DNA from: Persicimonas caeni | GTDB taxonomy: Bacteria; Myxococcota_A; Bradymonadia; Bradymonadales; Bradymonadaceae | Reading direction: 5' to 3' | Length of the DNA stretch: 64,000 nt | Assembly: GCF_006517175.1 (NCBI RefSeq) | Contig: NZ_CP041186.1 | Coordinates: forward strand, 3,375,074 to 3,439,073 | In this document: piece by piece, positions 18,507 through 43,126 of the stretch | Layout of the letters: every line of letters starts with the position of its first letter | How positions within the stretch are numbered: position 1 is the first letter of the stretch | The notes under the pieces: generated by a model | Told to the model about the DNA's origin: nothing | What the model saw: only the letters and a program-made list of their open reading frames with translations | Database searches by the model: none | Translations under genes and position numbers: made by a program

Positions 18507-19244
18507 ATGCCAAAGAAACGCCTCGACATCCTGATGACCGAACGCGAGATGGCCCGCTCGCGCAGCAAAGCCAAAGCGATGATCATGACCGGCAAGGTCT
18601 TCGTCGACGGCGAGCGCGTCGACAAGGCGGGCACACAGGTCGACGTCGGCGCCGACATCGAGTTTCGCGGCGACGTCAATCCCTACGTGTCACGCGGAGG
18701 GCTGAAGCTGCAGAGCGCGCTCGACGCCTTTGGCTACGACCCGGCCGGCAAGGTCGTCATCGACGTGGGCGCCTCGACCGGCGGCTTCACCGACTGCGTG
18801 CTCCAAAAAGGGGCCAAGAAGGTCTACGCGGTCGACGTCGGCTACGGCCAGCTGGCCTGGAAGCTACGCCAAGACGAGCGCGTCGAGGTCATCGAGCGGA
18901 CCAATATCCGGCACATGGAAGAGGATCGCCTGCCCGAAAAGTGCGACCTGGCGGTCATCGACTGCTCGTTCATCTCACTGGAGCTCGTCCTCCCCAACAC
19001 GCTCACGTTCCTGAAGGACGACGCCGACGTCATCGCGCTCATCAAGCCTCAGTTCGAGGTCGGCAAAGACAATGTCGGCAAAGGCGGGGTGGTGCGCGAC
19101 GAAGAGGTGCGCCAGCAGGCCATCGACGCCATCATCGCGTACGCCGGCACGTTGGGCATGACGTGCGTCGAGTCCGTCGACTCCGAGGTCCACGGCCCGG
19201 CGGGCAACGTCGAGCATCTGGTGTGGTTGAGGCGGGGCAATTAA
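18507..19244 (+). CDS. tlyA: TlyA-family rRNA 2'-O-methyltransferase
   Basis: 245 residues. An S4 RNA-binding domain is at 1-60 (RLDILMTEREMARSRSKAKAMI), then an FtsJ/RrmJ-type methyltransferase with SAM motif IDVGASTGGFTD and catalytic-like K/D/K/E residues in VSRGGLKL, VIDCSF, ALIKPQFEV and VDSEVHGPAGN. TlyA methylates 16S and 23S rRNA riboses and sets capreomycin sensitivity in mycobacteria. Length and order match the family. The gene stands alone, with a strong hairpin region downstream. Confidence 0.93.
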   Translation: MPKKRLDILMTEREMARSRSKAKAMIMTGKVFVDGERVDKAGTQVDVGADIEFRGDVNPYVSRGGLKLQSALDAFGYDPAGKVVIDVGASTGGFTDCVLQKGAKKVYAVDVGYGQLAWKLRQDERVEVIERTNIRHMEEDRLPEKCDLAVIDCSFISLELVLPNTLTFLKDDADVIALIKPQFEVGKDNVGKGGVVRDEEVRQQAIDAIIAYAGTLGMTCVESVDSEVHGPAGNVEHLVWLRRGN

Positions 19245-19288
19245 AATTGCCTCACAGAAGAGGTGGCCTTGCAGAAGTTGCTTCGCCA

Positions 19289-19417
19289 GCTATTAGGGGC
19301 GCTGAACTACGCGCAGAACTACAATTTGAGTGTTCCCACATGCACCACAAAAGCCGCATTCACACGACCCTCAAATTGTAGTTTGCGAGGGCGTTGTTTG
19401 CCCTCGCCTCTAATAGC
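19289..19417. repeat. Nested inverted-repeat element
   Basis: Outer arms GCTATTAGGGGCG (19289-19301) and CGCCTCTAATAGC (19405-19417) pair with one mismatch. Inner arms AACTACAATTTGAG (19317-19330) and CTCAAATTGTAGTT (19370-19383) pair perfectly. The 129-bp unit lies between the convergent tlyA and L,D-transpeptidase genes. It could be a MITE-like element, a folded RNA or an elaborate bidirectional terminator. Confidence 0.75.
19385..19407. terminator. Hairpin, probable bidirectional terminator
   Basis: GCGAGGGC, loop GTTGTTT, GCCCTCGC: a perfect eight-base-pair GC-rich stem between convergent genes. There is no clear U tract, so termination strength is uncertain. It lies inside the larger nested repeat. 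Confidence 0.6.
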
Positions 19418-37909: not shown

Positions 37910-40441
37910 TTAGAACGACTGCACCGTCTCGTCCCACAGATAATTCAAGCCCACCGTCAGCTCGGTGTTCGAGCCGAACTCGCCGACTTCGTCGGTGCGG
38001 TACAGGAATGCCTGGAAGGTGGTGGTGAAGAAGAGCTGGTCGATCACGGCGAAGTAGAGCCGGTTGGTGTTGCGTAGCTCCTGGATATTGCTGGCGCCGA
38101 TGTCGTTGTAGAAGTACTCGAGCTCGCTCTCGAATTGAATCGGCTTGCCGAGCAGGTCGATGAGGTCGGTGCGGTTGAAGGTGTAGCCGGCGTTCAGACC
38201 GTAGGTCGTCTCGCCGTCGGGCTGGTTGATGTCGCGGCGGGCGTTGGCGCCGAGCTTGATCTCGAGCGGCTCGAAGAGCTGGAATTTGGCGCCGCCGATG
38301 CCGGTCAGCTCGACTTTGTGCCAGTCGCGCTCCTTGGGCTTGCTGAACTCACTTTCGAGCTGCATTTCGGCGAAGGGCATCGGCACGTACCACTCGCCGC
38401 CGGCGTTGGCGCGGAAGCCGGCGTACTGGTAGGTGCTGCGCAATCGGATCAGGTCTTTGGTCTCTTCGAAGTCGTCGGCCAGGGGGCCGTTGGGGTCGGG
38501 GGCCACGCGCGCCTGGGCGTACTGGACAAGCAGGCGATTCTCCCAGCCGTGGTTGCGGCTGTTCGCCTTGACCTCGCCGTTCCCCTCCAAGTTGATCTGG
38601 GTGGTCGAGTTCACGTTGAGCTGCGACTGGTCGTACGACGGCTCGCCGTCGGCGCCCACCGGATTGTCGACGCTGACCTTATTGAAAGAGGCGTTGATGG
38701 CGCCGGTGTAGGTCCACAAAAACTTGCGATACAGGTCCGGAAAGCTCGCTTCTGGGTCGAGCTGATCGACCGTCTCAGCGTCGTCGGGAAGGTCGGCGGT
38801 GCGCACCACTTCGGCGACCAGGGTGCCGATCGTGGGCGGCTCATCGGACCAGGCCGGATCGAACACACGCAGGTCCTCGATCTTATCCTGCGGCAGGATG
38901 TCGTCGCCGCCCGTCGCCAAAAAGGCGTGGGTGGCCACCCGATACGAGCGCCCGGTCTGGATGGGCCGGCCGTTGACCAGCACCTTGTCTCCCTTTTTCG
39001 TCAAACCCGCCGCGACCAGCGGCCCGTCGAGCCTCTTGCCGAGCTCGGCGAGCAGACTGCCGGGCACCTCCACGGTGACCAACTTGTTGTTGTAGGGCAC
39101 GAAGGTGAAGATATCCGCCAGCGACAGCTCCTTTTCGATGGGGAAGACATCCGTCTGCACGAAGGTCTGTTCGTTGACCAGGGCGACTTCGGCGTCGGTT
39201 GAAAAGCGCATGACGTTGAGGATGAACGTCTTCAAGTCCTCGTCACTAAAGGGGTGGACGAGTGCGAGCCTCGGGTTGATGGGCTTGCTCCAGTCCTCGC
39301 AGTAGAGCCCGGCGAGGTCGCGAAGCATCTTCGCAGTTTGCGCGTCGGGCTCGAGGGGCGCGGTTTGCCGGGTGCGCGAGTCGATGCTCACCGCGCGCCA
39401 GGGCTCGTCCTCGGCCGCGCGCTCGAGGTTCAGATCGACGGTCACCGCCGAGGTGTGGGCGGTGTTGGCGCCTACGATGTAGGTGCCGGTCACCGGTGCG
39501 ACCACGTGGCCGTTGGTGGCGGTGTCTTCGGGGTTTTTGGGACTGTGCATCAACCTATTGGTGAAGAGCACGTCGATGCCTCGCACCGTCGAGGCGAGTT
39601 CGATGGCGTCGTCTTTCGAGGCGTCACCGGTCATGTGGTACAGCACCACGACCATGTCGACGCCGGCTTGCTGCTCGAGCTTCTCGATGACCTTCGGCAG
39701 CACCTCCTTGGGATCGGCGAAGTCGAGGCCGGCGGCGCGTTCCTTGGCAATGGACTTGGTCACGTCGGGGTCGATGGCGGTGACGACGCCCAGCTTCAAC
39801 CCGTCGCGTTCGACGACCTGCCAGGGCTTGCGATTCGGCCCGGTGCCCACCGCCTCGCAGATAGCCTCGGCGCCGCCCTCCTCGTTACACATGATATTGG
39901 CCGCCTGCAGGGGCAGCTTGGGGGGCGTGGCGCCCTCGATGAAGTTGAGCAGCTGCGCGCGCTCCATGCCGAGTTCGGCGTCGCCCAGCGCGTGGGCGGT
40001 GTACGGGATTTGGTCGAGCGTGGCCGCGAAGTCGACCGCGCCCTCGGCGCTTGTCAGCAAGTAGCGGGCGAGCGCGCCGGGAAAGGTCGAGTCGCCCAGG
40101 TTCAGCGCGATCGGTTTCTCGGCGGTCGTCTTCGCCTCGGTTACGAGTCGGTTGTAGAGCGCGGCCTGGCGCGCGTAATGCAACCCCTTGTCATCAACCG
40201 GCGCCTCGCGCCGGCAGTCGATATCGACCAGGCGACCGTCGAGGTTGCCGAGCAGGAAAAACGACAGGGTGCGGGTGGTGTCGGCCGGTTCGACCGACTC
40301 GGTCGACGGCGTGGCGACGGCCGGCGGTTGCTCGGCCGTCTCTTCGGACGCGGCGGGGTCGGGGGCGTCCGAGGGAGCAGCCTGGGCGAAGGCGGACGGC
40401 GCATATAAAAAGGCGAGCAAGCAAACCACGACGAGACGCAT
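37910..40441 (-). CDS. 5'-nucleotidase-family protein fused to an outer-membrane beta-barrel
   Basis: 843 residues from the ATG at 40441 (AGGTG upstream, signal peptide ending AFAQA). Residues ~55-370 follow the calcineurin-like phosphoesterase order of UshA but with altered metal motifs: FLLGNLDGR replaces the DxH region and AHALGDAEL the GNHE. Residues ~370-560 form the 5_nucleotid_C domain (FTFVPYNNKLVTVEVPG, YRVATHAFLATGGDDI). The last ~250 residues are amphipathic strands, ending DETVQSF with a terminal Phe, as in beta-barrels. The fusion would tether the nucleotidase to the outer membrane; activity is uncertain. Confidence 0.82.
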   Translation of the reverse strand: MRLVVVCLLAFLYAPSAFAQAAPSDAPDPAASEETAEQPPAVATPSTESVEPADTTRTLSFFLLGNLDGRLVDIDCRREAPVDDKGLHYARQAALYNRLVTEAKTTAEKPIALNLGDSTFPGALARYLLTSAEGAVDFAATLDQIPYTAHALGDAELGMERAQLLNFIEGATPPKLPLQAANIMCNEEGGAEAICEAVGTGPNRKPWQVVERDGLKLGVVTAIDPDVTKSIAKERAAGLDFADPKEVLPKVIEKLEQQAGVDMVVVLYHMTGDASKDDAIELASTVRGIDVLFTNRLMHSPKNPEDTATNGHVVAPVTGTYIVGANTAHTSAVTVDLNLERAAEDEPWRAVSIDSRTRQTAPLEPDAQTAKMLRDLAGLYCEDWSKPINPRLALVHPFSDEDLKTFILNVMRFSTDAEVALVNEQTFVQTDVFPIEKELSLADIFTFVPYNNKLVTVEVPGSLLAELGKRLDGPLVAAGLTKKGDKVLVNGRPIQTGRSYRVATHAFLATGGDDILPQDKIEDLRVFDPAWSDEPPTIGTLVAEVVRTADLPDDAETVDQLDPEASFPDLYRKFLWTYTGAINASFNKVSVDNPVGADGEPSYDQSQLNVNSTTQINLEGNGEVKANSRNHGWENRLLVQYAQARVAPDPNGPLADDFEETKDLIRLRSTYQYAGFRANAGGEWYVPMPFAEMQLESEFSKPKERDWHKVELTGIGGAKFQLFEPLEIKLGANARRDINQPDGETTYGLNAGYTFNRTDLIDLLGKPIQFESELEYFYNDIGASNIQELRNTNRLYFAVIDQLFFTTTFQAFLYRTDEVGEFGSNTELTVGLNYLWDETVQSF

Positions 40442-40611
40442 AAAACACCTGAACTGCATTCATTTCTCGGCACACGAATCCAAGTCGACTCAAAGATTCA
40501 TGCTCGATCGGCAAAGTCAACTGCAGCCCGCCTGAGTCCTCCATCACCTTTTCAGCGGAACAGAAAAGATCGCCCCTTGCGGGTCGCCACGGCCCGATCT
40601 TGGCAAAAAGT

Positions 40612-40649
40612 ACGCAACGATTTTCAATTTTTGCCGAAAACCGTAATGA
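40612..40649. repeat. Second copy of the sequence upstream of the RAYT gene
   Basis: ACGCAACGATT, then CAATT, then TGCCGAAAACCGTAATGAGG closely repeats 25146-25186. It may be the trace of a lost transposon end, since no transposase is nearby. Confidence 0.6.
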
Positions 40650-40757
40650 GGGGTGGATGTATCGTGGCCACGAGTTTCCCCACAAATTTGAAACGGGCGG
40701 GTGGGTCGTTGTTAGTCTTGGCTCACACGCTGGTGGCTGAGCCGGTTGGGCTCAGAA

Positions 40758-40919
40758 GGTTCTGTTCGACAACTCACTCCCGTCGCCGAAGGCGGTTGAT
40801 TCGTGCATCTTCGGCGCCGTCTGTCCTCGACGATGCTCCGCATCGCCTGCGTCAGACGGCATCCGAATCTGCACCGAATCCCCTCGCCTCGGCTCGGTCC
40901 GGAGTTGTCGAGCAGAACC
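40758..40919. repeat. Hairpin element 1 (~160 bp)
   Basis: Terminal arms GGTTCTGTTCGACAACTC (40758-40775) and GAGTTGTCGAGCAGAACC (40902-40919) pair with one mismatch. Inner arms GCCGTCTG/CAGACGGC and further paired segments lead to a tip of CGATGCTCCGCATCG. The tip region matches an element near 63868. Confidence 0.75.
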
Positions 40920-41409
40920 TGATCTGCGGCGGAACGGTTTCCCGATCCGCAAAACAGAGCTTTCGTAGCGAGCGTATCTTCGATGGGATGTCGGCCTGTA
41001 CATCTTCGACGCGCTCGGCGGAGGCCGAGCCGGCAGCTTCGTCTTTGTGCAGTGGCGGGGTTGTCGGATTTGCCCGGTGCGGGCTTGTTGATACGTCGAT
41101 GTTTACGATGTGGCGTGAAGATGGGCCTGTGCCATGGGAGTGCCGCAGCGGCGTCGATGTAGCTAGTAAGGTCGTGGCGTCGGGGTGGGCATGCGCTCAG
41201 CGTATGACCTATCCGAGGTGGCTTCAAAACGGGGCGGGCCTAGCCCGTTGACCTGTCGACATCACAAGAAAAACCGAAACGCCCATGCCGGCGAATTCTG
41301 TCGGCAGACGCACCGGTGCGCTTTTTGGACGGCATTATGCGCCAAAAATGTTTTAACTATGGTGCCGCTCTCGCAAGTATCGTCGCTTGCAGAACAGAGA
41401 CGCCGCCGC

Positions 41410-41655
41410 GCTCGGAAAGTTCGCTGCTGTGCGGCCGGGAACGCCGCCGCGCTCGGAAAGATTGCTGCTGTGCGGCCGGGAACGCCGCCGCGCTCGGAAA
41501 GATTGCTGCTGTGCGGCCGGGAACGCCGCCGCGCTCGGAAAGATTGCTGCTGTGCGGCCGGGAACGCCGCCGCGCTTGGAAAGATTGCTGCTGTGCGGCC
41601 GGGAACGCCGCCGCGCTCGGAAAGATTGCTACTGTGCGGCCGGGAACGTCGCCGC
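41410..41655 (-). repeat. Tandem array 1: six 41-bp units
   Basis: Units start at 41410, 41451, 41492, 41533, 41574 and 41615, each beginning GCTCGGAAAG (GCTTGGAAAG in the fifth), then ATTGCTGCTGTGCGGCCGGG and AACGCCGCCGC. Differences are few (TTCG in unit 1, ACTG in unit 6, GTC in the last). The 41-bp period excludes a coding repeat. Its reverse complement resembles array 2. Confidence 0.9.
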
Positions 41656-41688
41656 GCCGAGCAATCGACCAATATCTGTTTTATGGAG

Positions 41689-42018
41689 GGTGCTCTCGCC
41701 CAGAAATCGGCCTCTTCTGTCTGTAAAGAGGCGTCCCGGCTCGGCAATCGGCCGCTTCCTGTCTGCAAAGAGGCGTCCCGGCTCGGCAATCGGCCGCTTC
41801 CTGTCTGCAAAGAGGCGTCCCGGCTCGGCAATCGGCCTTTCCGGATTTCCAGAAGGCGTCCCGGCTCGGCAATCGGCCTTTCCGGATTTCCGGAAGGCGT
41901 CCCGGCTCGGCAATCGGCCTTTCCGGATTTCCGGAAGGCGTCCCGGCTCGGCAATCGGCCTTTCCGGATTTCCGGAAGGCGTCCCGGCTCGGCAATCGGC
42001 CTTTCCGGATTTCCGGAA
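41689..42018 (+). repeat. Tandem array 2: eight 41-42-bp units
   Basis: After a degenerate unit (41689-41729), units start at 41730, 41772, 41814, 41855, 41896, 41937 and 41978. Each has GGCGTCCCGGCTCGGCAATC then GGCC; the first three end GCTTCCTGTCTGCAAAGA (42 bp) and the rest TTTCCGGATTTCCGGAA (41 bp; unit 41814 has CAGAA). CCTTTCCGG...CCGGAAGG in the latter type is a hairpin. The array ends 150 bases before the next gene. Confidence 0.9.
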
Positions 42019-42168
42019 GGCGTGCTGCCCACGCGCACCGCCTTTGTCGTGACAGACAATTTCAGTTCCGCTATCGTGGGGCAACGTTTCGACAATCAAG
42101 TTGGGAAAGGCGCGTCATTGGTGGCGCGCACTCGTTTACCGAAACAGATGTATGTATGGAGGGGCATC

Positions 42169-42942
42169 ATGTCGGATTTGAGCAAGCAAATGAGCAATCG
42201 TATCGCCTGGGCACGCTACGTCCTCGCATCGGCGCGGGTTCACGGCGCGGCCATCGCGAGCCAGCTGATCCAAGAGTATGCCGAGTTCGCCGAAAACGGT
42301 GATGCGCATGACGCCGCGGCGATGGATACCACGCTCCACTTGTTGACGCGGCGACTCGAAAAGAAGACGGACCAGATGGAAGGCGCCGAGTTGGCCGTGT
42401 CGGCCGAGTTGGCCGACGATAATTCGGTGCGGGAGGCGCGCGACGGGTTTTTGGAGACCGGTCGCAGCCAGTACTACGAAGCGCGCGATTTGGTTCACCG
42501 TGCATTCGGCGAGCAGGCGGTCGATAGCTACGCACTGGCTGCGACGCCGCCCACGACCGCCGATGGGTTGGCCGCGGCGCTCAAGAACACGATCAACCTG
42601 ATGGAGGCGCAGCCCCAAACGGGTCGAGACTCCTTCGGCAACAGCTATGAGACATCGGCAGTCGTCGCCGCGCTGCGCCCCACGGCCGATTCTCTGGGCG
42701 GTGTGCTCGAGGAGGTCGATACTGAGATCCGCGAGGTGGACGAAGCCCGCGCGCATCGTGACAAAATCGTCGCCGAATGGCTGCACATCTTTCGCGGCAC
42801 TGCCGCTGCACTAAGCGCGCTGTACGACCTCGCCGGCCGCCACGACTTGGCCGAACGCATCCGCCCAACGCTCGCACGCGCCGAAGGGGAGACCGAGCCG
42901 CCCTCGGAGCCGGTCGGTGATGAGGAGCCGGTCGGAGCTTGA
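42169..42942 (+). CDS. Hypothetical protein, helical
   Basis: 257 residues from the ATG at 42169 with GGAGGGG upstream; the long open frame upstream covers the tandem arrays and is not part of it. The chain is alpha-helical, acidic and lacks a signal peptide: it starts MSDLSKQMSNRIAWARYVL and ends in an acidic ETEPPSEPVGDEEPVGA tail. No domain is recognised. A strong terminator follows. Confidence 0.75.
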   Translation: MSDLSKQMSNRIAWARYVLASARVHGAAIASQLIQEYAEFAENGDAHDAAAMDTTLHLLTRRLEKKTDQMEGAELAVSAELADDNSVREARDGFLETGRSQYYEARDLVHRAFGEQAVDSYALAATPPTTADGLAAALKNTINLMEAQPQTGRDSFGNSYETSAVVAALRPTADSLGGVLEEVDTEIREVDEARAHRDKIVAEWLHIFRGTAAALSALYDLAGRHDLAERIRPTLARAEGETEPPSEPVGDEEPVGA

Positions 42943-42972
42943 GCCCCACCCTCTCTCCTCTCTTCGTTTGAT

Positions 42973-43003
42973 GGAAAGCCCCGGCCGGTGGCCGGGGCTT
43001 TCC
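42973..43003 (+). terminator. Strong rho-independent-type terminator
   Basis: GGAAAGCCCCGGCC, loop GGT, then the exact complement: a perfect 14-bp stem 30 bases after the hypothetical gene's stop. AATTCTCGTTATTTG follows, with no solid U tract. Confidence 0.85.
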
Positions 43004-43126
43004 AATTCTCGTTATTTGCAATTCTCGTTAAAAGAGACCTGCCCACGTGTCGATGCACGGGAGTGTTGATACTCATAAGCGACATATTTTTATTGTTTGA
43101 TGCTCCCGGGCCAGGTCTTTTCCATC

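Follow-up and report, generated by a model that had tools for sequence, protein, structure and literature searches.

The two tandem arrays of 41-bp units in the window, i.e., the whole stretch of 64,000 nucleotides of Persicimonas caeni DNA that was analysed, appear to be one example of an arrangement that is widespread in myxobacteria-like bacteria and apparently undescribed. No published description of such arrays in this phylum was found in the open-licence literature. The arrangement is characterized by a constant period, dyads above chance, orthologous spacing free of indels, an association with three protein families (A, B, and C), and a place beside a predicted promoter. It suggests a purpose-built protein-binding platform, not junk repeats. 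The arrays are interpreted here, with moderate confidence, as phased rows of dimer-binding sites, which would act as a regulatory or nucleoprotein platform beside the adjacent gene.

The two arrays and the intergenic gap

The arrays are located in an intergenic gap (40460-42168) with a minus-strand gene for a protein with a 5'-nucleotidase C domain on one side and a family A gene on the other. The preliminary description had placed them in a gap of 1.7 kb shortly before a gene, and this was confirmed, the gene start lying 146 bp after array 2. About 737 bp of the gap is a dispersed repeat, which the preliminary description had missed. This copy (40585-41321, plus strand) occupies the array-distal side of the gap and is one of about 25 copies in the genome (75-92% identity). 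Nested in it is a palindromic insertion of about 167 bp (40757-40923; ends GGTTCTGTTCGACAACTC / GAGTTGTCGAGCAGAACC), which is missing in about half of the copies. Of the copies of the repeat, which include the window copy and L039-L062, about ten have a 41-43 bp array at a distance of 1.5 kb or less, which exceeds the expectation from array density, and arrays of 67-71 bp (GACCCCGGCGGG..CCGCCGGTGAATCAGCCTG) adjoin several copies (L019 at 19106-19374, L040, L045, and L055). The other window neighbours scanned were PPDK_N, 5_nucleotid_C, and LonB.

Array 1 (41400-41657) consists of 6.3 units of 41 bp (ACGCCGCCGCGCTCGGAAAGATTGCTGCTGTGCGGCCGGGA) and was detected by Tandem Repeats Finder over exactly this range with 97% matches and a score of 481. 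Array 2 (41660-42023) is built from units AGGCGTCCCGGCTCGGCAATCGGCCTTTCCGGATTTCCGGA with a 25-bp dyad, and for it the same program reported 7.1 copies of 41 bp at 41729-42023 (96%, score 449). AATCG marks occur in array 2 at 41705, 41746, 41788, 41830, 41871, 41912, 41953, and 41994, with a degenerate mark at 41663, and therefore array 2 comprises eight units and a ninth, degenerate one. The degenerate unit comes first, followed by three variants (one of 41 bp, two of 42 bp) and then by five units of 41 bp. In the unit-by-unit reading, the degenerate unit abuts array 1, so that the arrays form one stretch, and the self-similarity at lag 41 is likewise unbroken across 682 bp (41364-42045; locus L128, 16.6 periods). 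Within each array the units are near-identical over their whole length. The hairpin ascribed to the array 2 units was confirmed as a dyad, both in an early unit (GGCCTCTT...AAGAGGCG) and in the late units (GGCCTTTCCGG...CCGGAAGGCG). The arms differ between early and late units and both are largely paired; by eye, two pairs are changed on both sides. In array 1, a possible 5-7-5 dyad, GCGGC-CGGGAAC-GCCGC, can be read from the sequence and is weak.

The open frames that run through the repeats raised the possibility of a protein-coding function. The dicodon model, trained on long frames from 1.66 Mb of the host genome, nevertheless classified the repeats as noncoding, as the preliminary description had proposed, and Pfam gave no match. 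A search of the arrays against Rfam and a comparison of the array DNA with phages were also without a match.

The two arrays had been described as related in opposite orientation. Alignment in both orientations revealed no significant similarity between array 1 and array 2 (reverse, p 0.08-0.13; forward, late units, p 0.06-0.07, which is no better than the reverse), and this part of the description, alone, fails by the refuting condition set for it. Significant inversion of paired arrays does occur elsewhere, at L077, L155, and L174. The arrays do not belong to the common dispersed repeats either, since genome-wide only one locus is related to the window array unit at a significant E-value. 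This is a second, homologous set of two arrays (L002/L020) at a distance of 63 kb, in which array A resembles array 2 and array B resembles array 1, and the order is the same once that locus is turned round. An origin of the arrays from the dispersed element was rejected, because the two related loci carry the adjacent repeat on opposite sides of their arrays, and because a 41-43 bp array is lacking within 1.5 kb of most copies of the repeat.

Three protein families beside the arrays

The family A gene of the window (42169-42942, plus strand) encodes an acidic (pI 4.7), all-helical protein of 257 aa, for which no Pfam, NCBIfam, or PHROGs family was found. Its structural model has a pLDDT of 93 and contains two helices of 60-67 residues. 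Foldseek gave no match with E < 0.001 in the PDB and none among viral models, the best E-value of the family A profile against PDB sequences was 0.012, and the resemblance to helical sensor domains (VIA-align Z ~9) is within the chance range for long helices. No homologues were detected in phages, plasmids, or viral contigs. The family is present in 11 copies in the 8.05-Mb host genome and in 32 of the 284 Myxococcota genomes sampled, and is thus missing from most; Lujinxingia vulgaris TMQ2 is one relative genome.

Arrays with a period of 41-43 bp are found upstream of many family A genes, with unit sequences mostly unrelated between loci. With one fixed self-similarity test, a noncoding lag of 41-43 bp (or its double) was detected upstream of 24 of 70 family A homologues, which share descent, so that the association counts are not fully independent. 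At the same threshold, it was detected upstream of 9/1146 other genes in the host genome and 1/293 in a second genus. Among the host's own family A copies, 8 of 11 passed the test. At a threshold of 20, the comparison was 7/11 against a slightly too high background of 12/1191 (Fisher p 2e-11). A ninth copy (L151) has its array displaced by 823 bp in the upstream direction, and a copy of the dispersed repeat separates it from the gene. Of the 78 lags tested, 41 or 42 was the one seen in 25 of the 30 upstream regions of family A that were significantly self-similar. In a 1.66-Mb sample of the host genome, all coding tandem arrays had periods divisible by three, and the noncoding arrays peaked at 41 bp (13 arrays), followed by 42 (4) and 43 (2). 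No A, B, or C neighbour was found at 9 of the 15 loci with 41-44 bp arrays in this sample. In 400 kb of a second genus (G013), seven noncoding arrays were counted (L224-L243), and each of them has a period of 19-22 or 42-43 bp, corresponding to about two or four helical turns.

Families B and C were found through the neighbouring loci in the array survey. Family B arrays have units of 42-44 bp, in single or doubled period, and mostly lie downstream of the gene (19/26), while family C has arrays on both sides of the gene. In the host, 11 matches of family B are, like the 11 of family A, spread over one chromosome. Several family B proteins match DUF6261 (PF19775), with 33.3 bits for L265 and 32.9 bits for L266 at a Pfam gathering score of 27, and the host's own family B copies also exceed the cut-off, whereas none of the scanned family A proteins matches it. 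No paper on the function of DUF6261 was found. Family B gave no match in plasmid records, and its structure gave no Foldseek match in the PDB with E < 0.001. Families B and C are related to each other (HHalign 96%), and a common ancestry of these two with family A was undetectable (HHalign probability < 2%). Among the 24 genomes searched for B and C, all 11 A-positive genomes have at least one of the two and none of the 13 A-negative genomes has either. No known DNA-binding domain was recognisable in A, B, or C, and the proteins are mostly acidic. The otherwise different A, B, and C proteins (G000) have an acidic, proline-rich C-terminal tail ending in EPVEA, EPVGA, or EPV, possibly a shared tag, and similar tails occur in the proteins L080 and L081, which are encoded beside 20-21 bp arrays.

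Spacing, symmetry, and the predicted promoter

Across loci, the period is constant and the unit sequence is not. The orthologous Lujinxingia loci L171 and L172 share a 420-bp array of ten 42-bp units, in which 73 positions are substituted and no indel occurs. The flank on the upstream side, in contrast, has 38 substitutions and 4 indels over 180 aligned columns, or 165 and 8 over 395 columns, and the 137 bp between array and gene contain 2 substitutions. In the paired arrays of these loci, the palindromic core matches directly and the flanking GTTGAAAC/GTTTCAA element is reversed. The clearest array is L244, with 13 palindromes (consensus ACGACCGCGGTCGT) spaced by 42, 42, 42, 42, 43, 43, 42, 43, 43, 42, 42, and 42 bp. 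Its near-identical paralogue, L252, lacks exactly one unit of 42 bp. The idea of a variable-length locus thus holds in part only: these paralogous arrays differ by one unit and orthologues vary in unit number. Dyads exceeded chance when 57 arrays were compared with permutations of their unit columns (mean z 2.0, Wilcoxon p 4e-9). In the stems, the counts of G-T and A-C were 156 and 125 overall, and 86 and 82 for arrays upstream of family A; this strand asymmetry is not strong, and there is therefore no clear sign of RNA pairing.

A sigma-70 promoter is predicted between array 2 and the family A gene (42049-42077, plus strand; GTGACA-17-TATCGT, with the -35 at 42049 and the -10 at 42072). It begins 3 bp past the end of the lag-41 region, and in an independent consensus scan of 2.7 kb (40400-43100) it was the sole promoter-like site. 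Provided that this prediction holds, the promoter follows the array, which would then be upstream DNA outside the mRNA. A consensus scan found no plus-strand terminator-like site between 42023 and 42169. Behind the gene lies a terminator-like 15-bp stem (42972-43004, plus strand), and the gene is therefore probably monocistronic. At 16 loci of family A where an array adjoins the gene, the best sigma-70-like sites have their -35 at -14 to +64 bp from the array end, spacers mostly of 17 bp, and in most loci a -35 approximately 145-165 bp before the start codon; these predicted promoters are consensus matches, most of which are not significant singly against shuffles.

A proposed phased binding platform and its alternatives

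The combination of four-turn spacing, dyads, absence of indels, and promoter contact suggests that dimer sites are lined up along one face of the DNA. One dyad-symmetric site per 41-43 bp would correspond to four turns of B-DNA, and a dimeric DNA-binding protein would then occupy the same helix face many times over. At family A loci, including the window, the row of sites would end at the -35 of the promoter predicted for the gene itself. Most probably, a nucleoprotein array next to this promoter would control the expression of the adjacent helical-protein gene, or be coupled to it. Protein binding, the dimeric state of the binder, and the regulatory effect are what we infer from this arrangement. 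The earlier suggestion of a binding array is well supported by dyad units of four turns, a period that is kept across the phylum where the sequence is not, orthologues without indels, and arrays that abut predicted promoters. Since the units differ at every locus, the partner should be locus-specific, or else recognition may depend on spacing and symmetry more than on sequence; a locus-specific partner could possibly include the product of the adjacent gene. The units themselves turn over by gain, loss, and homogenisation of whole units. Several observations speak against the dimer-site platform. The B arrays lie downstream, some of them in convergent gaps, and from there control of the gene's promoter is difficult to envisage. 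The A, B, and C proteins are mostly acidic and lack a recognisable DNA-binding domain, so that they could be no more than putative binders. By these methods, which depend on about 70% similarity or on the self-similarity threshold and make any absence soft, an array is seen at only about one third of the family A homologues. The nine array loci of the 1.66-Mb sample without an A, B, or C neighbour, the promoter predictions that are mostly not significant singly, the kinship of the homologues, and the weak dyad of array 1 also count against it.

A bolder form of the proposal, possible but rather doubtful, is an undescribed phylum-wide system of many loci, in which each locus-specific phased palindrome array and its cognate helical A, B, or C protein, assembling on it directly or via a partner, would form many distinct nucleoprotein complexes per cell. 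Through the arrays, three families of multi-copy proteins with unknown function share a measurable DNA feature, in which the spacing is conserved and the sequence is not. The arrays make the unannotated A, B, and C proteins directly accessible to experiment, and provide a natural example of a DNA element apparently selected for helical phase and symmetry.

The arrays could also be self-contained centromere-like or anchoring sites, at which a large nucleoprotein complex with an A, B, or C protein or another partner would serve chromosome organisation or the upkeep of a formerly mobile element, the proximity to the family A promoter being secondary. We regard this as unlikely. The B arrays are found just downstream of the gene with a locus-specific unit sequence, and sopC is located behind sopB. 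The closest layout known is that of the F-plasmid parS/sopC, whose twelve 43-bp repeats contain 16-bp inverted repeats bound by ParB (PMC6238139). The likeness lies in the tandem units of ~43 bp with an inverted repeat beside a gene, as in the arrays of 41-43 bp with dyads and in L244 with its 13 palindromes at 42-43 bp; F sopC demonstrates that an array with this layout can nucleate a large complex. The parC sites of the ParMRC systems (R1, pB171, pSK41, and pCW3), direct repeats of 10, 11, 17, or 20 bp, also differ in sequence between systems and lie upstream of the operon and of parM (PMC9426499), but the arrays described here have a longer period, dyad units, and no ParM or ParR. In contrast to F sopC, each genome holds many chromosomal arrays with their own unit sequences, before (A) or behind (B) genes of mostly acidic helical proteins, and the spread of 11 A and 11 B matches over one chromosome argues against a centromere-like role. 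So do the absence of ParA, ParM, or ParB among the scanned neighbours of the window arrays, where ParA and ParB were not recognised and the window gene had no ParB match in Pfam or NCBIfam, the mostly acidic character of the A, B, and C proteins, in which no known DNA-binding domain was seen, and the lack of matches for A and B in plasmid records and for A in phage records.

Transcription of the array into a repeat RNA acting together with the adjacent protein, in the manner of the guide arrays of TIGR-Tas or a type III antitoxin RNA, is considered improbable, and such RNA-array readings fit less well than phased binding sites. The array adjoins a conserved gene of ~250 residues, its dyad units could form hairpins, and in TIGR-Tas a tandem array of locus-variable units likewise lies up- or downstream of a single effector gene (PMC12045711). 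However, TIGR arrays carry two variable spacers between conserved repeats, which the near-identical window units exclude. No Nop domain was found beside the window array: Pfam gave no match, and the Foldseek and VIA lists, with no clear fold, are compatible with either its presence or its absence. ToxIN resembles the window in its tandem repeats upstream of a gene; in ToxIN, the promoter is placed before the repeats and a terminator behind them (PMC8860590), whereas here the predicted promoter follows the array and consensus scans found no plus-strand terminator between array and gene. The window gene, all-helical in its model, matched neither a ToxN/AbiQ-like endoribonuclease nor any other toxin in Pfam or NCBIfam. 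The small G-U asymmetry and the lack of an Rfam match also speak against a repeat RNA, and periods near two and four helical turns point to duplex DNA. Finally, the arrays may be neutral minisatellites that large intergenic gaps tolerate and that arise through a bias of replication or recombination towards multiples of the helical repeat. Noncoding arrays of other periods (10, 20-21, 27-34, and 62-69 bp) abound in the host genome, and some of the 41-44 bp arrays stand apart from any A, B, or C gene. This reading is nevertheless quite improbable, given that arrays are enriched across genera at the loci of families A (p 2e-11), B, and C, that side and distance are constant, that orthologous loci have no indels, and that dyads exceed chance.

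Among these other arrays, those of 27-34 and 62-69 bp are built on the hairpin-like repeat CGAGGGCAAGATGCCC..GCACCGA (L074, L078, L025, L069, L072, L113, and others), and many of them lie at gene 3' ends in convergent gaps. Arrays with the 10-bp unit AGGGTNACTA (and its complement) are located between genes at L018, L024, L076, L087, L117, and L123.
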